DNA of 29,881 nucleotides. Source: a virus. The DNA is taken from IMG/VR virus record IMGVR_UViG_3300009163_000127, positions 1 through 29,881 of that record. One strand, written 5' to 3'. The notes beneath the pieces were generated by a model. That model did not search any database. It worked only from the letters and a program-made list of their open reading frames with translations, and was not told where the DNA came from. The first letter of the stretch is position 1, and each line of letters starts with the position of its first letter. A program made the translations under genes and the position numbers. Shown piece by piece: positions 4,547 to 28,653 of the stretch.

Positions 4547-5794
4547 TTATTCAAAATCATCAAGATTGTAAGCAAATGATTTTTTAGGAATATATGTTTT
4601 GATATTTTTAGATAAAAACCAATGCCATCTTGTTGGATGTTCTGGAGTTACTTTACTACCCATCCCATCAGTAATAATAAACACCACTGATGGATATTTT
4701 TTGTTTTTTAATTTTTCTTTTTGAATATAATCTTCTATAATTTTAAAACAAGTACCTCCCCCACCATAAATTTTACCAGAAGATAAATCAGTTTCTTCGA
4801 CTTTTGTATCGAAGCAAAATAACCTAACATTAAACTTTTCTTTTGCTAAACTATTAGCAGCTGTGAAAAATCTTTCTGCTAAATTTATACAACTTCCTGA
4901 CGTGTCTAAAAAGAAATGAACATCTATTTTATTCTTACTAAGATGGAAGCATTCTATTTCAGCATTTGTTGGCAAGATAAGACCATTAGAAAAACCACTC
5001 ATTCTTCTAGATTTTCTAATCCACTGTTCTCTTTCAACGCTGGAAAAACGTAATGTTTCAAGTTGCCATTTCTTTATGATTGATTCCCATTTTTTGTTTT
5101 TCGACTTTTTAATCTTGTTAATCGTTATCCAAGAACCTGCATTAGTTCCTGCTTTCTTAATGTTATTCAAAGCATCGCTCAATTGTTCTTTTTCAGGACC
5201 ATCTAATTTATCAATAGTTTGTTTAACAGCTTCTTCAAGCTGCTCATTTACTAAACCTGAATGATCATCAACAAGATTGCCATTATTGTCTCCTTCGCCA
5301 GAACCACCACCATTGCTTTCTTTTTGTTTTTCAATTTCATTATAATAAAATTCAGTAGATTCATCATCTGGATAAGGAAATCCCAAATACTTTTTATCCT
5401 TGAAAACAGTATCAACCCAACAATATTCACTATTTGGATCAACATCTTCTTTAATAAAACCAAAATCTCTTACAAGAGAATGATTTACTACAACATCCAT
5501 GGCTATGTTTGATATCTTATTATTGACTCCTTCAAGGAATCTTGACCCATGCTGAAGCACAATATGAAGTGCTTCATGACATATAACAAACATTTTTTTA
5601 TAATCATCACATGTTTCCCAAAAATTTTCATTAAAAAGAAAGTTAATAAATTTTCCTTCCTTATCAAATTGTACTGCTGCCGTAGGGATTGAATCAGTAA
5701 AACTAGGTTTACCAATTTCTACTATTTTGTAGAAAACGCTATGGTGACAAGCAAGCTTTTCTTTAATGCGCTCCCAATCTGAATTAATATTCAT
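4547..5794 (-). CDS. HExxH metallopeptidase-like / VWA domain protein (DUF2201-type), partner of the AAA+ ATPase
   Basis: 415 residues. The ATG at 5794 is chosen because a GGAAGGA site sits directly before it; an in-frame start at 5836 lies deep inside the upstream gene. N-terminal domain: VICHEALHIVLQHG with HEALH at 73-77, a zinc-peptidase-type motif. A Gly/Asn/Glu linker lies near 160-180. C-terminal VWA domain: intact MIDAS with DTSGS at 297-301, Thr348 in a GGGGT loop and Asp376 in IITDG. This arrangement matches bacterial VWA-like proteins encoded next to MoxR-type ATPases. The gene overlaps the ATPase by 11 bases, so the two are co-translated. The role is probably chaperone- or remodelling-like; substrate unknown. 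The HExxH domain argues against cobaltochelatase CobT. Confidence 0.8.
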   Translation of the reverse strand: MNINSDWERIKEKLACHHSVFYKIVEIGKPSFTDSIPTAAVQFDKEGKFINFLFNENFWETCDDYKKMFVICHEALHIVLQHGSRFLEGVNNKISNIAMDVVVNHSLVRDFGFIKEDVDPNSEYCWVDTVFKDKKYLGFPYPDDESTEFYYNEIEKQKESNGGGSGEGDNNGNLVDDHSGLVNEQLEEAVKQTIDKLDGPEKEQLSDALNNIKKAGTNAGSWITINKIKKSKNKKWESIIKKWQLETLRFSSVEREQWIRKSRRMSGFSNGLILPTNAEIECFHLSKNKIDVHFFLDTSGSCINLAERFFTAANSLAKEKFNVRLFCFDTKVEETDLSSGKIYGGGGTCFKIIEDYIQKEKLKNKKYPSVVFIITDGMGSKVTPEHPTRWHWFLSKNIKTYIPKKSFAYNLDDFE

Positions 5795-7184
5795 TTTTAA
5801 TTCCTTCCATTGCGTCAATGATTTCCAAACTTTCACACTTCTTCTTAAAAACTAGGTTCTGAGTAACCTTAACAGCAAACATTTTATTCAGTTTTACATA
5901 ACATTTATTCCATGCGTTTACCAATAAATCTAAATTGTATTGCTTTATAGTTGCTTCCCATTTTTCAATCACAAAATCTACAATAAATGCTATTGTCTTT
6001 TCACAAACAACAATATCTGGATCATCTGGTAAATTTTGCAAAACAATTTTCATTCTATCGTTTTTGTTACAATTTTCTATTCGATCCATATAGTCAGCGT
6101 TTGACAAAAACTCAGTAAGATCATTAGTGACAGTTTTATTTATACTCAAATCTTCTACACTATTAGCAGCATAATATGATCTTATTTTCATCAATGCCTT
6201 GGGATTAGAACCAGCAGTTAATATCTGCTCAATCACATTCTTAAACTCTTGATTATTATCTTTATTCTTTAAGATATAATCAGATATTTTTAGTTTTTCA
6301 TCAGCTATCAATAAAGATAATTTTTCCTTTTTCAAAAGAGGAATGAAAAATTTCATATAGTTATCATTAAGATTAATTATCTTGATGGCTGAATTGTAAT
6401 TGTTTTCAACATTTAAAAACAATTTTGCTTCTTTTGCATTTTTTGTTTCATACAATTTAGATAATTTCTTATCAATTGGTCCATTGCTAATATCTTGTCT
6501 AAGTTTGCCAATGTTGCTATCCTTCGGAAGTATATCTTCTAAAGGAATACCTTTACTCATAAAGTTTAATGCGTAATCAAGTCTTCTAGGAGATATCTGT
6601 TTTTTAATATTTTCTGGTAGATCATTCCACCAATTAATACTAGCAGCAGCTATATCATTTCCGTATTTATTGCTAAAGTATTCCATATCGCAAGCATACG
6701 GAACAATGATTTGATTGGCATGAAAACGATCTTTGTGGGCTGGATCTAGCCTTTCAACATCATATGTATTTTGTTCATCTTCTGGATTGATAGCTGCCCA
6801 AACTACTTTTAGATTAGGAAACTTTCTTCCATTGATTGATTTAAATTGACATAATTCAAGTAAGGCATTCCTGATCTTGCTAGGAGATCTGTTGAATTCA
6901 TCAACAAAGATAGCTTGTATTTTACCTTCATCAACAAATGCTTTCGGAGGTATAATTTCAATACATTTTTTGCCGTTATATTCGACTTCTTTTGGTATTC
7001 CGATAAAGTCAACCCATGGATCAAGCGTACTTCCAGAAAAGTAAAGCCATGATTCGTTTAATACTAATCCGCTTTCTTCAAACACTTGCTTGACAATAGA
7101 TGTTTTACCAACACCATGTTCTCCAGTAAGAAGAACATTCATTTCACAATCGTAGTGCTTCTTTAACTTTTCAACCAAATTCAT
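5784..7184 (-). CDS. MoxR-type AAA+ ATPase
   Basis: 466 residues. Walker A GEHGVGKTS (21-29), Walker B AIFVDE (91-96), sensor-1 Asn133 in WAAINPED and an arginine-finger-like DRF (152-154) are all present, so the ATPase core looks intact. The C-terminal 250 residues are helical and not recognised. MoxR ATPases act with VWA-domain partners to remodel or activate protein complexes, often for metal-centre insertion; the VWA partner is the next gene, overlapping by 11 bases. The start is supported by AAGGAGG 6 bases upstream and by a consensus TTGACA promoter 27-55 bases upstream. CobS is a related AAA+ protein common in T4-like cyanophages, but the partner here does not look like CobT. Confidence 0.85.
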   Translation of the reverse strand: MNLVEKLKKHYDCEMNVLLTGEHGVGKTSIVKQVFEESGLVLNESWLYFSGSTLDPWVDFIGIPKEVEYNGKKCIEIIPPKAFVDEGKIQAIFVDEFNRSPSKIRNALLELCQFKSINGRKFPNLKVVWAAINPEDEQNTYDVERLDPAHKDRFHANQIIVPYACDMEYFSNKYGNDIAAASINWWNDLPENIKKQISPRRLDYALNFMSKGIPLEDILPKDSNIGKLRQDISNGPIDKKLSKLYETKNAKEAKLFLNVENNYNSAIKIINLNDNYMKFFIPLLKKEKLSLLIADEKLKISDYILKNKDNNQEFKNVIEQILTAGSNPKALMKIRSYYAANSVEDLSINKTVTNDLTEFLSNADYMDRIENCNKNDRMKIVLQNLPDDPDIVVCEKTIAFIVDFVIEKWEATIKQYNLDLLVNAWNKCYVKLNKMFAVKVTQNLVFKKKCESLEIIDAMEGIKNEY

Positions 7185-7210: not shown

Positions 7211-7239
7211 ACAATAAAAAAATTTTACAGGCTTGTCAA
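7211..7239 (-). promoter_or_regulatory. Sigma70-type promoter of the AAA+/VWA operon
   Basis: On the minus strand: perfect -35 TTGACA (7239-7234), a 17-base spacer, and -10 TATTGT (7216-7211). The start would fall near 7204, giving a leader of about 20 bases with AAGGAGG before the ATG at 7184. The -35 box overlaps the stop codon of the upstream gene. This suggests early expression by unmodified host polymerase, unlike the surrounding late genes. Confidence 0.65.
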
Positions 7240-7973
7240 GTGAAGATTTGTAAATTCATGCGGTCAGAAATAAATACATTTTCGCCCATTTCCATCGTGA
7301 ACCAAATATTGTAAATACCTATTTCTAAATCAGTTGTGTTAAGCATATAGTAAGCGTAATTCTTTTCTCTATAATCAGTCGGAACATTATCAAGAACTAA
7401 TCTTAAATCCTGTTCAGCAGGAACACAATCCCCACAATTTAATTCCATGCTAATTTTTACATTTGAATTAACAATCAAATTTTCATAATATCGCCCAAGA
7501 TCTGTTCCCCTTGGGACATTAGGCGTAATCTGGCAGATAATATATTGCTTTGAACCTTTTCTGAAACGATTGGGACGAAACACGAAACTAAAATCATAAA
7601 CAACTGGAATTGGAGTCGTGTACCAAAGATCTGCATAAAGATTAAATGTATTGATAACTTGGCTTACACCTTCATTTGACATAAAGGTAATATACCAAAC
7701 ATCAACATACTTTCCAATTGTATAAAGAGGATACTCAGCCACAGGATCAATATAGTACTTACCTGTGTCGTCCTGTTTTACATCGTTAGAACCAATTGTC
7801 TGAACAAGAGTCCCCTGAGACAAATCGTTAATCGAACTATTATCTGGAATTTTATAAATTTCTACTTTTTCAATAGATTGCACATTTGAAAAACTATTTT
7901 GGTTATATATGAATAGCCTTAATATGACTTTGTCATCAGGAACAGGATTTTGATATCTTTCTTTAGTAGCCAT
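7236..7973 (-). CDS. Putative virion or baseplate structural protein
   Basis: 245 residues, family not recognised. The composition is rich in Tyr, Asn, Val and Thr with few charged clusters, as in beta-sandwich virion proteins, and there is no signal peptide. AGAGGT lies 5 bases before the ATG. It starts 20 bases after the small GpE-like frame ends and is last in the minus-strand tail module that begins with the gp26-like gene, so a baseplate or tail role is likely by context. A CTAAATA sequence just upstream (7983-7989) could act as an additional late promoter. The function is unproven. Confidence 0.6.
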   Translation of the reverse strand: MATKERYQNPVPDDKVILRLFIYNQNSFSNVQSIEKVEIYKIPDNSSINDLSQGTLVQTIGSNDVKQDDTGKYYIDPVAEYPLYTIGKYVDVWYITFMSNEGVSQVINTFNLYADLWYTTPIPVVYDFSFVFRPNRFRKGSKQYIICQITPNVPRGTDLGRYYENLIVNSNVKISMELNCGDCVPAEQDLRLVLDNVPTDYREKNYAYYMLNTTDLEIGIYNIWFTMEMGENVFISDRMNLQIFT

Positions 7974-7992: not shown

Positions 7993-8208
7993 TTACCTTT
8001 TTTTCTTAAATTCCTTTTCTTGTTCTTCTCTTTCCTTTTGCTTCTGTTCAATGAACTTTTCAACAAGATATCTTCTTTCTGCAATTGTAAATTGCATAAA
8101 GTCTTGTTTGTTGACATGCAGATGATAAAGAAAGAAAAATATCTCATCCATCAACGCTTGCCATAACTTCAGGCTTGGACTTAGTTCGCCTTCTTGTTCT
8201 TTGGGAAG
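7993..8208 (-). CDS. Small GpE-like tail domain, probably made as a -1 frameshift extension of the gp26-like protein
   Basis: This open frame continues without a stop from the slippery heptamer at 8214-8208 to TAA at 7995-7993, giving a 71-residue extension. Its core, FFLYHLHVNKQDFMQFTIAE followed by RRYLVEKF, resembles the small P2 GpE-type and contractile-tail proteins (hydrophobic start, then a YHxH motif, then a Glu-Arg-Arg helix). An internal ATG at 8151 could start a 52-residue protein, but no Shine-Dalgarno sequence precedes it. The tail is strongly charged (Lys/Glu). By analogy with lambda G/GT and P2 E/E', the fusion (about 411 residues) would be a tail-assembly chaperone form. Confidence 0.65.
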   Translation of the reverse strand, partial: LPKEQEGELSPSLKLWQALMDEIFFFLYHLHVNKQDFMQFTIAERRYLVEKFIEQKQKEREEQEKEFKKKR

Positions 8209-9227
8209 AAAAAACCCGAATCAAGTGGCAAATCAATTTCAAATTCTTCGTTAGAATATGGAGACAAGATTGCAATCTTTGTCTGCATGCCAAAAGGAGG
8301 TTCATTTATCAAGTTTCTAATGTAATTTACATCTTGAATAGGTAGATTCCTAATCAAAACCTTAAGCTCTTCTTTGTCAGAAATATTTTCAATATTATTG
8401 ATAAGCTGAGCAGTCCTGTAAGTAAGAGTGTCATCCGTTGCACTGTCACTAAACGCCTTGAGCTTTCTTTCTCTATATTCTTGGATTTCAGTCTCATCTT
8501 TACCTTTTCCAAGCCTATAACTGAATTTCAAGCCACTCTTTGGCAATACACCAGAAAGATTAGCTGGACCATAATTGTCTGGACAACGATCAATTACTAA
8601 TCCATCAAGATCAACAATTGTGCTAAATTGTTTGTCAGTGTCAGGGCAACGAACTTGAACTTCATAATCAGTGCCGTAACTAATACCACGAAGGTAGATT
8701 AACAAGAATGTTCTGTCTTGTGAAAGAAGATTTTCAGGCTTAATATTTTCTCGAATACATTTGCTGAAAATCATATTTACAGCAGTACCCTTTTTAACGA
8801 ATCGAGGAGTAGCAAGAATCTGTTCTTCTTCTCCTGTCATAGGACGAATGTTGATGACACCATTTGTAGGACCATCTGTGCCATCATAAAATTTACCTTT
8901 ACTTGGCAACATAACTTCTTCGTAATGAGCACTATGTTGCTTCAATGTGTTAAGAATTGCGCTTAATTCTGTATTTCCATTCATCATAACCATAGCAGTA
9001 GCGGCATCCATGGGTGCCCTTACTGGTGGTTGATTCATTCCAGCTATATCACCAGCCATTTGTGCTCTAAACTGTGGAGGAATATTACCAGTTATGCCGG
9101 GATGCAAACCATTACCAAACTCTGAATTAGACTGTTGTCGCAAAGGATGATTTTCTGGAAGTTCAATTTGAGGTTCATTGAAAGAATTGTTAACAGGTCG
9201 TTGTGGTCTAAAAATCTCATCAGCCAT
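8181..9227 (-). CDS. gp26/T4_baseplate-family tail protein (likely tail assembly or baseplate hub)
   Basis: 348 residues from the ATG at 9227, which has AAGGGGAAAA before it; a TTG 8 codons upstream lies ahead of that site. The first 100 residues are Pro/Asn/Gln/Met-rich and disordered. The domain starts at VMLPSKGKFY (106-114) followed by INIRPMTGEEEQIL (125-138), a signature of the phage T4_baseplate (gp26-like) family found in contractile-tail clusters. The zero frame ends at TAA 8183-8181, eight codons after a TTTTTTC slippery site. It heads a minus-strand tail module and is probably expressed in two forms. Confidence 0.75.
   Translation of the reverse strand: MADEIFRPQRPVNNSFNEPQIELPENHPLRQQSNSEFGNGLHPGITGNIPPQFRAQMAGDIAGMNQPPVRAPMDAATAMVMMNGNTELSAILNTLKQHSAHYEEVMLPSKGKFYDGTDGPTNGVINIRPMTGEEEQILATPRFVKKGTAVNMIFSKCIRENIKPENLLSQDRTFLLIYLRGISYGTDYEVQVRCPDTDKQFSTIVDLDGLVIDRCPDNYGPANLSGVLPKSGLKFSYRLGKGKDETEIQEYRERKLKAFSDSATDDTLTYRTAQLINNIENISDKEELKVLIRNLPIQDVNYIRNLINEPPFGMQTKIAILSPYSNEEFEIDLPLDSGFFFPKNKKAN
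8208..8214 (-). other. Programmed -1 frameshift heptamer (T TTT TTC)
   Basis: In the gp26-like frame the codons read GGT TTT TTC. The heptamer fits X XXY YYZ, and slippage moves ribosomes exactly into the open frame ending at 7993. Tail assembly chaperone genes of many long-tailed phages use such sites. Confidence 0.65.
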
Positions 9228-9309
9228 TTTATTTTCCCCTTTTATACGCAAATCGTATTTTTAATTTAGTGTAATTCATTTAAAACTATATTATTGCAGG
9301 AGATTTTTT

Positions 9310-12226: not shown

Positions 12227-12874
12227 TTAAATAGGAGGCTCAAGCTCGTTGGGAATAATAAAGCCCGGAACAGATCCAATTGCATCTGGTTCATTTTCTG
12301 GGAACATAAGACTGGAAGCAAGACCTATTACTTCTTTTGTACATTTTTCCCAATAAGCTCTATCATATCTTAATGTCATCGTAACTTTCATAGCATTGTT
12401 TTGTCCCATATCAACTTCACCAAAATCAATATCAGTAGGAAAAGCATTCATGTATGTCCATGCTTCCATAGCATAACCACAACCATCTAACATAAATATT
12501 TTAACATTTCTTTTGAAATTACTATACAATGAACCATAAAAGTTCATTTTTATATCTCCACCCTCATTTCTAATATTATAAATTTTAGTAATCCACTCCC
12601 ATGCAGGATTGGTTTCAGCTACATCGTAAAGCGTTACTGTAATTGGATTCCATTCAGGTCTATCAGCAAACCAAATTGTTTCCGCTAAATGAGGAATATC
12701 AAATTCTTTAAACTTCAGTTTAGGTCTAGCAGACTTTTCTTCTATTAAAACATCCGTCAAGAAACGAAGACTACCAACAGCACCCCTATGAGTGATGTCC
12801 GGTATATACATCAAAAAACGGTTTTGCCTCTTGAAAACAACAGATGAGGCAAAACCGATTCCCATATTAGGCAT
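12227..12874 (-). CDS. Tail tube protein, copy 2 (gp19-like)
   Basis: 215 residues (T4 gp19: 163). The N-terminus MPNMGIGFASSVVFKRQNRF parallels copy 1 (MGIGPLNNVAFKRKYRW). Later blocks are also shared: a TLYDV block (TYYDV in copy 1), LDGCGYAMEAW, a PTDIDFGEV strand and the final LRYDRAYW. These are the beta-barrel strands of myovirus tube subunits. It is the last gene of the minus-strand tail operon, 15 bases after copy 1, with TAGGAT before the ATG. It may form the tube or a tube-like cap or adaptor; which copy builds the main tube cannot be told. Confidence 0.8.
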   Translation of the reverse strand: MPNMGIGFASSVVFKRQNRFLMYIPDITHRGAVGSLRFLTDVLIEEKSARPKLKFKEFDIPHLAETIWFADRPEWNPITVTLYDVAETNPAWEWITKIYNIRNEGGDIKMNFYGSLYSNFKRNVKIFMLDGCGYAMEAWTYMNAFPTDIDFGEVDMGQNNAMKVTMTLRYDRAYWEKCTKEVIGLASSLMFPENEPDAIGSVPGFIIPNELEPPI

Positions 12875-12889
12875 AATTCAATCCTATTA

Positions 12890-13543
12890 TCAATACGTTC
12901 CAGTTGCTGGAACATTAACATTACCTGTACATACAGGCTTGGTGCATTGCTCAGCAGCAATTGGATTGCAATGACTTTGATAAGTTGCAAATGAATATCG
13001 AAGATTTACAGAAATTTCACATTCTCCAGACTCAGAATAACTAAGATCACCAAAATCCATCTTAGTGGGCCAACAGTTAACTAAGTTCCACTGTTCTAAA
13101 GCATATCCGCAACCGTCTAAAAGCAAGAGTTTACCAAGTCCTGCATAACCTTGACCATCAGCAGTATAAGCATAACTTCTCTGTGTTGCAGAAATCTGAG
13201 TTGGCGCTCCGTTTGCAGGAGCATTAAAGTTATAAACTCTGTTAACCCATCTGAGCAAATTGCTTACAGTTGCATCACCCTGAACAGCAACATCATAGTA
13301 AGTAAAATCAAGAGCTTCAAATGTTGCTTTACCGGGAATCCAAGTTTTTCCGTTCAAGAAATTGATTTCTGTGCCGTCATCAACTGTGATACTTGGTCTT
13401 TTCGCAGTTTTAACATATTTTCCAGATACGTTAAAACTGGGATCACCACCGATGTTTTCTACAGAAAACACCCATCTATATTTACGTTTGAAAGCCACAT
13501 TATTAAGTGGACCTATTCCCATGTTATTTGCTGTAATAGCCAT
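12890..13543 (-). CDS. Tail tube protein, copy 1 (gp19-like)
   Basis: 217 residues. It follows the sheath gene by 33 bases, the classic sheath-tube order. LDGCGYALEQWNLVNCWPTK and the strand EISVNLRYSFATY match gp19-like tube subunits. GGGAGG lies 6 bases before the ATG and is a strong ribosome-binding site, as expected for a protein made in over a hundred copies. A TATAAAG sequence upstream (in the sheath-tube gap) might add a late promoter. The final 25 residues contain Cys/Pro/Thr-rich sequence absent from copy 2. Confidence 0.85.
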   Translation of the reverse strand: MAITANNMGIGPLNNVAFKRKYRWVFSVENIGGDPSFNVSGKYVKTAKRPSITVDDGTEINFLNGKTWIPGKATFEALDFTYYDVAVQGDATVSNLLRWVNRVYNFNAPANGAPTQISATQRSYAYTADGQGYAGLGKLLLLDGCGYALEQWNLVNCWPTKMDFGDLSYSESGECEISVNLRYSFATYQSHCNPIAAEQCTKPVCTGNVNVPATGTY

Positions 13544-13576: not shown

Positions 13577-15916
13577 TTATGCTAAAGTCCTTACTAGGTT
13601 AAATTCGATGAATATGAATTCGATAGCGTAGACTGGAACAATTCCAATTCTTGCTCTCAATTCGTTTCTTGCAATTACATCTGATGTGTTTAATTCTTCG
13701 TCACATTTGATTGAATAACTTTGTGCGCCAGAGTTTGCAACAAGATCAGACAAGATCTGAGAACATTTTGTTACAAATGCTGACCTTGTTGCTTCTGTGT
13801 TTGGCTCAAAGAGGAAGCTCTTAGCAGCATTTTTAATTGTTTTTTCGACATAGAATAACATTCTGCGAACATTTACTCTATCGAGAGCAGTCGGTGTTCT
13901 CTGAAGAGTTTTCTGACCCCAGATTACAAATCCAGTAATGTCTGGATAGGTAATAATTGGATTGATAGCATTATTGTTACCATACATCAAATCACGTTCA
14001 GCCAAGGTTGGTCTGCTGAATACATTGTTGATATTTGGCACAACACCTCTGTTCAAGCCTGCTGGAGCAAACCAAGGACCAGATTGTGCGTCACTTTGGC
14101 AGTATGCAGCTAATACTGAACCTGAAGGAGGAACCCAAACAGGAATATTATTGAACACATCGGTTTGTTCAACCCAAGGATAATACAAAGCAGCAAAGTC
14201 TGTATCGAGTCTAGCTGAATTTAATGGATGAACACCATTTTGCCAGTTAATGATTTCATTGACAGTTAGTCCAAATGGAGGATCAATAATAGCAAGACAA
14301 TCTTGACGATATGTTTCACAGAGATCAATTAAAGCTCTTACAACTGCTGTTGAGCTTCTTCCCGGCGTAGCAACCAAATCAATATCAATTTGTTCTGGTT
14401 CAGATAATGTGTAAAGACCAGTTCCAGCAGTTGCATTGCCAATAACAAGGTCATCCTGATTATCAGGATCGATTGGAATTCCATCAGTACCACCGCTTAG
14501 AAACAATCCAGTTACACCTGTATTTGCAGGAGGAGCTGGTACTGAAGTATTGTCGGTAACTCTGATGAAGCTGCTAACAGTATTAATATAAGATTCAACA
14601 TAGAAAGAAGATAGTTCATTCTTGGTCAAATTGCCCCAAGCTTCAACTTGCTGTCCATTATTGTATACTTGTATTTGGAAAGTGCCATCATAAGGATTAG
14701 TTGTGATGACAATAGCAGTTTTGTTTCCTTCAATTCCGGGACTGTCAGCGTATACTGTGAAGCTGATATCACTTGAAGTGTTGGAGCTACCAGTTACTTT
14801 TCCACCTTCGTCAGTATTACCATCGCCAGTAACTCTGGGAGGAGATGTGCCAGTAGCTGTAGTATTACTTAGACCAAAAACAACATCCAATGTACTTGCT
14901 GTTTTAACAACTAATCTGCTACCAACACCATAAGTCATTGTATTAAGAATGATGTGGTCAGATCCATCGGTGCTGGCTTCAAATCCACCGGGGAAACCAA
15001 TGGATGATATTTGTGTTTGGATTTCTGTCAAAACTTGATTAGTTGTCCAAGAAGAACCAGCGAGTGCTGACAAGTCGATTACCTGAACAACATCATCGAT
15101 ATTTACGTTTCCTGTGCCGCTAATAACAACTTGGAGTGCATTAGCAAGATAATCTGCGCTAATTCCACTGAAGTTCCAAGTGCCAGCTGATGTATAAATA
15201 TCATCAGGATAGTTTGTATTAGTTCCTGTGAGGATAGCTTGTGTCATATCTGTACCAAGACCAACGATGCTTGATACACCGCCATAAATGGAATCTTGAT
15301 ATGAAACTAATTCGATTGAAGAAGTGCTTCCGAAAGCCCAAACAGATCTTAGACCTAATGTGTCACTGCTTGTTTTATAGAATTCGATACCATCAATTTC
15401 TTTATTTAGACCAAGATTTAAGGCTAAAACAAGTTCGTCTATGGTATATGTGTCTGCGTCAATGGTAAGAATCTTGCTTGCAAGAACTCCGTTTAATTTC
15501 CAGCTGAAGTAGCTATCAACTGCAAATACATAAGGACCAGTAACACTGCCAATGATATCAACTACACCACCAGTTGCAGGAACATCAGCAGAAGCTGATG
15601 TCGCTTGTGTGCTACTGGTTGGATCTGTGTCTGCAACTCTTGTAATAATGAGTTCGCTTGAAACTCTAAGAATTTGTTGAGCAGCATAAATCAAATAAGG
15701 ATCACTGGTGTCAGGATGTGGATTACCAAATTTGGTAACAAGATCTGTCAAACTAGTAACACTAGTTGGTGTATTAATTGGACCCTTGCTTGCAAATCCT
15801 ACTAAACCTATCTTGTGGAAAGTTGTAGAAGGACTAACAAAAGTCAAGTCATTTTCTGTGATTCTCACAGAAGGACTGATTGTGTTGCTTGCAGGAAAGC
15901 CTCGTAAAGTTGCCAT
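13577..15916 (-). CDS. Contractile tail sheath protein (gp18-like)
   Basis: 779 residues (T4 gp18: 659). The N-terminus has ISPSVRITENDLTFVSPSTT and the GLVGFASKGPINTP strand. The C-terminal domain carries FVIWGQKTLQRTPTALDRVN followed by RRMLFYVEKTI, the signature of myovirus sheath subunits. The long Ser/Thr/Gly-rich middle (about 100-480) would form surface-exposed insertion domains and accounts for the extra length. GGGAGAAAAG precedes the ATG. It is one base downstream of the small gene and followed by the tube. The sheath surrounds the tube and contracts during DNA injection. Confidence 0.93.
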   Translation of the reverse strand: MATLRGFPASNTISPSVRITENDLTFVSPSTTFHKIGLVGFASKGPINTPTSVTSLTDLVTKFGNPHPDTSDPYLIYAAQQILRVSSELIITRVADTDPTSSTQATSASADVPATGGVVDIIGSVTGPYVFAVDSYFSWKLNGVLASKILTIDADTYTIDELVLALNLGLNKEIDGIEFYKTSSDTLGLRSVWAFGSTSSIELVSYQDSIYGGVSSIVGLGTDMTQAILTGTNTNYPDDIYTSAGTWNFSGISADYLANALQVVISGTGNVNIDDVVQVIDLSALAGSSWTTNQVLTEIQTQISSIGFPGGFEASTDGSDHIILNTMTYGVGSRLVVKTASTLDVVFGLSNTTATGTSPPRVTGDGNTDEGGKVTGSSNTSSDISFTVYADSPGIEGNKTAIVITTNPYDGTFQIQVYNNGQQVEAWGNLTKNELSSFYVESYINTVSSFIRVTDNTSVPAPPANTGVTGLFLSGGTDGIPIDPDNQDDLVIGNATAGTGLYTLSEPEQIDIDLVATPGRSSTAVVRALIDLCETYRQDCLAIIDPPFGLTVNEIINWQNGVHPLNSARLDTDFAALYYPWVEQTDVFNNIPVWVPPSGSVLAAYCQSDAQSGPWFAPAGLNRGVVPNINNVFSRPTLAERDLMYGNNNAINPIITYPDITGFVIWGQKTLQRTPTALDRVNVRRMLFYVEKTIKNAAKSFLFEPNTEATRSAFVTKCSQILSDLVANSGAQSYSIKCDEELNTSDVIARNELRARIGIVPVYAIEFIFIEFNLVRTLA

Positions 15917-26816: not shown

Positions 26817-27197
26817 ATGAACACAGTAAAGAGTAAGATCGCTAAGACCACTGTTAAGGCTGCAACTAAGCCTATTGCTAAGACCAAGTCAGCTGTTCCT
26901 GCAAATAGCATTCGTTATAAGATTATCACAAGGATTGATGGATTAAACGAAGTGTACGAAGCTACTGCCGAAATCCCCGGATTCAAGGCTACGAAGGTTC
27001 TTCGCAGCGATGGCGGAACTGTTTTCACCACTCGTTCTGCTCTTACCAAGGCTTGTCGTGATCGTGCAAATGCTCTCAAGCGTTTGCCAATTTTTGATCT
27101 TGGTACTCCAGCAGCCACCAAGGCTCCAAGATCCAAGAAGGTTTCTACTTTTGTTTCAACTAGCGGTGTTTGCCCAGTTACTGGCGCATCATCCTGA
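26817..27197 (+). CDS. Basic Ala/Lys-rich protein, possibly DNA-binding
   Basis: 126 residues. The first 30 residues are a histone-H1-like Lys/Ala/Thr tail (KSKIAKTTVKAATKPIAKTK); a compact domain follows (about 32-95: RYKIITRIDGLNEVYEATAE, then TRSALTKACRDRANALKRLP) and a basic Pro/Ser/Thr tail ends in CPVTGASS. The start follows AAAAAGGAGAG. Codon choice is unlike the neighbours (many CGT, GCT, AAG, CTC and GGT, fewer AAA/ATA), as in a highly expressed or foreign gene. Likely roles are DNA binding or host takeover; the fold is not recognised. Confidence 0.7.
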   Translation: MNTVKSKIAKTTVKAATKPIAKTKSAVPANSIRYKIITRIDGLNEVYEATAEIPGFKATKVLRSDGGTVFTTRSALTKACRDRANALKRLPIFDLGTPAATKAPRSKKVSTFVSTSGVCPVTGASS

Positions 27198-28634
27198 ATT
27201 TCTTTCTAAATCAACAAGACAAGACCCAATCACATTTTTTAATGATTGGGTTTTGTCTTTTCTATAGATCTTAACATTCGGATACCATTCGGAATAATCA
27301 CCTGTCTTGCCCCAACGCCAATCAGGCTTGTCACTTACTATTACTGCACTTGGTATTCCAACTGATCCAGCAATGTGAATAGGCAAGCTATCAACACTAA
27401 TAAAATAATCCATTTGTTCTAAATGTCTAATTGTATCTTCAATTGATTCTAGTTTATCTGCCAAATCAATTACTTTGTATTGTTCTAAATTTTTTGAGTA
27501 ATCACATGTTTCTTCAGAATAAGAATATTTTCTTGCTCGTTTGTCTTTTTGAAAAGAATAAACTTCATATTTATTGAAATTTATTTGAGTGAGGAAGTCT
27601 TCAGCGTAACAACTTCGTTGAAAATCCATTGGGTGTGCAGGATTCCCAGCCCAAACAATACCTATTTTTTTTATTTCTTCTGAATACTTGTAATTACCAA
27701 GCTTGTATGGCAAAGGAATGTCCTTAACATTCATGTAATAAGGCAAGCTTAATAACGATACACCATACTTAGTTGTAGGTTTTTTAGAAAATTCAATTCT
27801 TAAATCCTTGCAAATGGATTTGAAATTTTCATTTGCAACAAAATAACTGTTTTTATATTTTCTTTGAAATTCTGGCAAAAACCTTAAAAACATTAAATTA
27901 TCACCTAATCCTTGCTCTAAAAATACACAGAATTCCATATCATCAGTTATTTTTTCTGGTTTTTCTAAATTGTTTGATTGCATGTATTTTATCAAATTAG
28001 CATGACAGCTAAATCTACTTTCATAGTGTTTCCAAGCAATGTCATATTTTTTCTGAAATGCTAATGAATAAAAATAATCAACTTCAACATCTTTTTGACA
28101 ATTTTTATTTTCAATTGCTTTCTCAAAATGAACTTCTGATTCTTTATATTTTCCAATATCAGCCAGACAACAAGCTTTATTGGCATGATAATACCATTCA
28201 TTCGGTTCTAACTCTAATGCCTTGTCAAGCTTTTTTATGGATATATTATGTCTGTCTAATTGCGTTAACGACAATGCTTGATTGCAATAATATGCAGCTT
28301 TTTTGTCATTTATTTTGATTGCTTTGTGTGCAGCTAAAACGGCTTCAACAAATTTTTTACGATTTTTTAAATGAATAGAATAATTGTTCCAATCGTCAGC
28401 ATTATTGTATTTTTCACACAATTCTGGGAAGAACTTATCACATTCATCCATTTTATCCATTTTTTGTTTAACAATTGCAAGTAGTTGATAATATTTGTGT
28501 TCATCAAAAACTTTAACAGCTTGTTCTAGAGTTTGTTCTGCTAGTTGAAAATTTTTACTTTTAAAATATTCTTTAAGTGCATTGTCTAGTTTTTGTTTCA
28601 AAGTGTCTAAATTGATTTCTGTATTTTGTTCCAT
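27189..28634 (-). CDS. TPR-repeat glycosyltransferase (GT9/GT41-like)
   Basis: 481 residues from the ATG at 28634 (a GTG 6 codons upstream is possible). Residues 10-210 are TPR helices (e.g. LDKALELEPNEWYYHANKAC). The catalytic half starts with FLEQGLGDNLMFLRFLP (about 238-254), then IGIVWAGNPAHPMDFQRS (about 324-341), DYFISVDSLPIHIAGSVGIP (about 409-428) and a DWRWGKTGDYSEWYP block. This is the classic pattern of TPR-linked heptosyltransferase-like enzymes. It probably transfers a sugar to a protein or surface glycan. Its 3' end overlaps the basic protein gene by 9 bases and carries that gene's terminator. Confidence 0.85.
   Translation of the reverse strand: MEQNTEINLDTLKQKLDNALKEYFKSKNFQLAEQTLEQAVKVFDEHKYYQLLAIVKQKMDKMDECDKFFPELCEKYNNADDWNNYSIHLKNRKKFVEAVLAAHKAIKINDKKAAYYCNQALSLTQLDRHNISIKKLDKALELEPNEWYYHANKACCLADIGKYKESEVHFEKAIENKNCQKDVEVDYFYSLAFQKKYDIAWKHYESRFSCHANLIKYMQSNNLEKPEKITDDMEFCVFLEQGLGDNLMFLRFLPEFQRKYKNSYFVANENFKSICKDLRIEFSKKPTTKYGVSLLSLPYYMNVKDIPLPYKLGNYKYSEEIKKIGIVWAGNPAHPMDFQRSCYAEDFLTQINFNKYEVYSFQKDKRARKYSYSEETCDYSKNLEQYKVIDLADKLESIEDTIRHLEQMDYFISVDSLPIHIAGSVGIPSAVIVSDKPDWRWGKTGDYSEWYPNVKIYRKDKTQSLKNVIGSCLVDLERNSG
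27218..27260 (+). terminator. Terminator of the basic protein gene, lying inside the opposite CDS
   Basis: A 15-bp stem (27218-27232 with 27243-27257, one G-T wobble) with a 10-base loop is followed by TTTT. It is 20 bases after the stop at 27197. The same bases encode the C-terminus of the glycosyltransferase on the minus strand. Confidence 0.8.
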
Positions 28635-28653
28635 AAAAATGTTCGCTTTCACA

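Follow-up and report, generated by a model that had tools for sequence, protein, structure and literature searches.

Whether a single gp26-family gene of a T4-related phage yields two proteins by programmed ribosomal frameshifting, and what this would mean for gp26 and gp51 of T4 itself, is the question raised by a minus-strand locus in a viral DNA stretch of 29,881 nucleotides (IMG/VR record IMGVR_UViG_3300009163_000127). This whole stretch, as analysed here, is called the window. A standard review (PMC5009743) describes G-T frameshifting as a conserved feature of long-tailed phages, "except T4". An earlier note on this DNA had linked a gp26-like frame through a -1 slip to a GpE-like domain and had proposed a tail assembly chaperone. 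Our analysis suggests, with high probability, that this gene serves a T4-related myovirus as its frameshifted tail assembly chaperone and that T4 gp26/gp51 are its duplicated form.

The slip site and the two overlapping frames

The 0-frame ORF runs on the minus strand from ATG 9227 to the stop codon at 8183-8181 (Table 1). Residues 102-318 match the Pfam family PF12322 (T4_baseplate, the gp26/gp51 family) with 55.9 bits, above the curated cut-off of 24.5 bits, and the protein also matches the PHROGs family phrog_150, annotated 'baseplate hub'. Near its end the frame reads GGT TTT TTC, which contains the heptamer T TTT TTC (8214-8208), and after eight more codons it stops at TAA. From this heptamer the -1 frame is open to the stop codon at 7995-7993, over 73 codons including the two slipped Phe codons and 71 beyond them. 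The position of the heptamer eight codons short of the 0-frame stop, and the 71 open codons after it, are thus as the earlier note had described them. Among the 8,995 codons of the window, in-phase TTTTTTC is present at this site only.

Table 1. Coordinates of the frameshift locus and its immediate surroundings in the window
Feature	Position	Strand	Description
Slippery heptamer T TTT TTC	8208..8214	-	P and A codons both Phe; single in-phase copy in the window
-1 frame extension (T-like domain)	7993..8214	-	73 codons + stop; 411-aa fusion with the 0 frame
gp26-family (PF12322) 0-frame ORF	8181..9227	-	348 aa; predicted short, G-like product; PF12322 6e-15, phrog_150 7e-17
Probable Shine-Dalgarno AGGGGA of the gp26-family gene	9235..9240	-	read in the sequence, 7 bases before ATG 9227
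Gene next downstream of the frameshift gene	7236..7973	-	245 aa; no family match (Pfam, PHROGs)

Conservation and selection in close relatives

We scanned viral contigs and obtained 80 relative loci, of which two run off their contig and 78 have an intact 3' end. Every one of these 78 has an open -1 frame, which continues for 167 to 200 bases counted from where the 0-frame stop begins. At the slip site 75 loci read T TTT TTC and three (L017, L018, L031) read C TTT TTC. Relatives that lose the heptamer while keeping both frames had been named in the earlier note as evidence that would refute its reading; the three C TTT TTC loci come close to this, whereas the exact heptamer is kept in all the others. 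In these three both frames are intact and re-pairing in the P site would be imperfect.

The exact heptamer is found in 54 of 56 distinct sequences (the other two differ) and in 28 of 30 clusters formed at 75% amino acid identity of the -1 domain. Together with its single in-phase copy in the window, these counts argue that the heptamer does not stand there by chance. Elsewhere in the relatives' genes Phe is encoded by 426 TTT and 342 TTC codons. By codon usage NNT TTT TTC has a chance of about 0.15 per lineage, and kinship among the loci makes any p-value derived from it too small.

Past the 0-frame stop, the differences between relatives fall on the three codon positions of the -1 frame as 4243/2687/8060, and single changes in this frame are synonymous in 4356 cases vs 1808 nonsynonymous. 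Judged by these substitutions, the -1 frame is under purifying selection and evolves as coding sequence beyond the 0-frame stop. No conserved RNA structure was found downstream of the slip site in the relatives (mean z -0.4), and an upstream SD-like stimulator is present in 7 of 57 and hence not conserved.

The -1 frame could instead be a separate small gene, starting in the overlap (ATG 8151 or TTG 8154) and coupled to the upstream stop. An in-frame ATG does exist in the window, and in cyanophages an ATG is conserved two bases after the gp26 stop, so that reinitiation could also yield a free small protein there. As the earlier note had stated, ATG 8151 is not preceded by a Shine-Dalgarno sequence, and the relatives do not conserve it. 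The first in-frame ATG, GTG or TTG shifts between codons 14 and 39 in the clade of the window, often falling inside the conserved core, whereas conservation of the -1 protein begins at the slip site, with an F-F-L-P junction upstream of any start. In Aeh1 there is no start before the core, and a separate gene would have no need to keep the heptamer. We regard this explanation as extremely improbable.

The shifted product could also come from slippage of RNA polymerase, not of the ribosome, on the T run, and the T run, six long in the relatives and seven long in the sister clade described below, is indeed conserved. The exact codon phase, the C fixed at position 7 and the C TTT TTC relatives, which have just five T, make transcriptional slippage very unlikely; T runs this short rarely cause it. 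A ribosomal frameshift within a chaperone-like gp26-family gene, as the earlier note had proposed, best fits the slip site and open -1 frame kept in 78 of 78 relatives, the lack of a usable internal start and the purifying selection.

The same design across the PF12322 family

We went through the PF12322 homologues of annotated phages individually. From their sequences, the frameshift arrangement is family-wide in PF12322 (gp26/gp51) and no quirk of the window phage. The small domain lies in the -1 frame in cyanophages, KVP40, Aeh1 and jumbo phages, and in the +1 frame in Microcystis, Flavobacterium and Bacillus phages. KVP40, Aeh1 and S-PM2 each have a single PF12322 gene with the same slip site. 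The Aeh1 domain (NC_005260, locus L286) is an unannotated stretch after this gene. Five jumbo phages have a -1 domain, three of them behind T TTT TTC (Atu_ph07, Phosso and Vibrio 2.275) and two behind T TTT TTT (XacN1 and RAS14); scans of viral contigs for relatives of Vibrio 2.275 and XacN1 found none.

In cyanophages the gp26 frame ends with TTT TTC, one codon and the stop. Of 80 cyanophage loci, 77 have T TTT TTC as the site and three have T TTT TTT, and the -1 frame is a small gene annotated 'baseplate hub assembly catalyst', the name used for T4 gp51.

A large sister clade consists of Microcystis phage Mel-JY01 and many viral contigs, with Flavobacterium phage immuto close by (loci L201-L280, L105, L108). 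At the end of its gp26-like frame TTT TTT TGG CCT is strongly conserved, and the small domain follows in the +1 frame, which is open in 63 of 65 distinct loci. The sequence could be read by +1 or by -2 slipping. Variant sites occur in some members (L252, L260, L264, L271, L273). The domain is likewise in the +1 frame, near CC CGA, in SP-15, LIS04 and GXN1.

The gene order in LIS04 and immuto is sheath, tube, frameshift gene and annotated tape measure, and in SP-15 and Mel-JY01 a long protein occupies the tape-measure place; a check of the long proteins of these four phages supported a tape measure for LIS04 only. This placement fails in the window, where the tube genes lie at 12227-13543 but the downstream neighbour of the frameshift gene is unmatched and, with 245 aa, too small for a tape measure. 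The claim made here is therefore that the window gene works like G/GT and E/E', not that it is a canonical member of their group.

Other genes of the window were noted. Two adjacent minus-strand genes (12227-12874 and 12890-13543) each match tail tube families (phrog_4542 and phrog_45). The tail sheath protein at 13577-15916 has 779 aa, with C-terminal sheath domains and a long middle part. An AAA ATPase gene (466 aa) and a putative metallopeptidase-like gene (PF13203) overlap each other, together cover 4547-7184, and come after the frameshift gene on its strand. A protein of 487 aa at 27189-28652 has TPR repeats and a weak match to glycosyltransferase family 9.

Relationship of the shifted-frame domains

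Profile comparison by hhalign related the window -1 domain to the +1 group (E 1.9e-10), the +1 group to a set of KVP40, Aeh1, cyanophage and gp51 sequences (E 5.6e-6, prob 86), and the cyanophage domain to the C-terminus of T4 gp51 (E 9.5e-12). Through this chain of matches we infer that the window -1 domain is related to the gp51 C-terminus. The relation is not claimed as a single observed step, since the window domain compared directly with the gp51 C-terminal domain (phrog_634) gave no significant hhalign match (E 0.12; E 0.0012, prob 19).

The GpE-like core that the earlier note had seen in the -1 frame found no support. Pfam detected no GpE in any of 41 members, and P2 E' gave no significant hhalign match to four alignments. 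Weak Pfam matches to DUF6760 were obtained for 8 of 41 members of the -1 domain and 10 of 25 of the +1 domain (best E about 0.003), so that DUF6760 is possibly a remote relative. As assignments for the -1 domain, the Pfam matches to Tma16 and DUF6760 were set aside as weak and unexplained.

Origin of the two-gene form in T4

T4 gp26 (208 aa) and gp51 (249 aa) both match PF12322 end to end and are paralogues; gp51 carries an additional C-terminal domain that is absent from gp26. T4 has two PF12322 genes vs one in each of 16 frameshift-bearing contigs, whose completeness is not certified. Seven gp26 and seven gp51 sequences group into one clade (100/99) of a maximum-likelihood tree. This clade is nested among the frameshift genes, adjoining KVP40 and Aeh1 and then the cyanophages, and frameshift genes are present on either side of the deepest split. 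The root is the midpoint and certain gp26 branches are long, which makes the exact branching unsure.

From the paralogy of gp26 and gp51, the extra domain of gp51 and the position of their clade inside the frameshift-bearing genes, it is very probable that the two forms which the relatives produce by frameshift are kept in T4 as separate genes. The gp26 and gp51 genes of RB43 and RCIP0002 lie side by side and overlap, which looks like the outcome of a tandem duplication. We consider it likely that T4 is the derived case. A frameshifted chaperone gene would have been duplicated once; one copy would have lost its T-like domain, and the other would have come to read into that domain without a shift. 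The relatives, ranging from cyanophages to jumbo phages, would still obtain both forms from a single gene, by -1 slippage or, in one large clade, by a shift into the +1 frame.

Structure and function of the products

The AlphaFold model of the gp26-like protein (pLDDT 77) has the HK97 tail assembly chaperone 2ob9 as its best PDB match by VIA-align (Z 5.9, rmsd 3.6, 90/104 residues), with unrelated rows near Z 3. The resemblance is suggestive and no proof, since Z 5.9, at 10% identity, is below the level proving a shared fold and can reflect a common arrangement, and plain Foldseek gave the same match at E 4.1. Among viral models, Foldseek matched the gp26-like model to baseplate-hub and hub-assembly proteins. 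The -1 domain is modelled as a small helical hairpin, helix-turn-helix (pLDDT 85), for which Foldseek found no PDB match. A search by sequence found no solved structures for the gp26 profile, the -1 domain or gp51.

The frameshift may be real and the protein still be a structural component of the baseplate hub with a minority extended form, not a chaperone. The PF12322 and phrog_150 annotations name the baseplate or hub, older genetics assigned gp26 to the hub (PMC3004832), and no tape-measure gene adjoins the gene in the window. T4 gp51, however, is needed for assembly yet absent from the particle, and gp26 was named 'hub assembly chaperone' in a 2010 review that terms gp51 essential with function unknown (PMC3004832). 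The gene stands between tube and tape measure in LIS04 and immuto, and the top structural match is a chaperone. We find a purely structural role unlikely. The T4 gp51 and gp26 roles and the tube/tape-measure position in relatives make a G/GT-type chaperone the best reading. The earlier note had called this role foreign to the textbook view of T4 gp26; it does depart from that view, but by less than was thought, because the 2010 review already lists a chaperone.

What the sequences show directly is architecture, conservation, selection, paralogy and tree position. If the gene is such a chaperone, ribosomal slipping, the ratio of the products and their binding partners would follow the scheme that we infer here. 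Most ribosomes would stay in the 0 frame, and their product, in the role of G, would be the 348-aa gp26-like protein. A minority would slip back by one base at T TTT TTC, where the two Phe-tRNAs can re-pair with TTT TTT, and would read 71 further codons to give the 411-aa fusion with its small helical C-terminal domain, in the role of T. By analogy with lambda G/GT, the part common to both products may coat the tape measure or recruit it, while tail-tube or hub subunits may be recruited by the rare domain; both products would then leave. T4 gp26 and gp51 would be a duplicated, frameshift-free version of the same short/long pair.

The frameshift mechanism itself is already known; finding it in the gp26/gp51 family, and connecting it with T4, appears to be new. 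A literature search covering few subscription journals found no paper that ties gp26/gp51 to frameshifting. Sullivan et al. described gp51 of cyanophages and vibriophages as short by about 200 N-terminal residues and Aeh1 as lacking gp51 (PMC3037559). The frameshift design in relatives would explain both the "short" and the "missing" gp51. If this reading is true, the T4 exception to the G-T frameshifting rule (PMC5009743) is removed, and T4 gp26 and gp51 gain a concrete role as a short/long chaperone pair. A programmed frameshift would have been replaced by gene duplication, a question testable in T4 itself.

Comparison with known frameshifted chaperones

The window gene has a slippery site near the end of the 0 frame and an overlapping, conserved shifted frame, as have lambda G/GT and P2 E/E'. 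The lambda slip site is G GGA AAG. Like lambda G/GT, the window gene is one gene that would give a short product and a long -1 product with a small C-terminal domain, and a transient role in assembly is proposed for it by the same parallel. Unlike G/GT, it has no match to a Pfam or PHROGs profile of that kind, slips on T TTT TTC and is not adjoined by a tape-measure gene.

The P2 E/E+E' site, GG T TTT TTG, is very similar to GG T TTT TTC of the window, and a small -1 domain follows in both. P2 E differs in having 91 aa and in lying directly before the tape-measure gene T, and E' has no significant profile match to the window -1 domain. T4 gp26 and gp51 belong with the window gene to the same Pfam family end to end, and gp51 resembles the predicted window fusion in joining a gp26-type core to a small C-terminal domain at the place where the frameshift extension of the relatives sits. 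T4 has two paralogous genes and no frameshift, in contrast to the single gene of the window phage with its -1 site.
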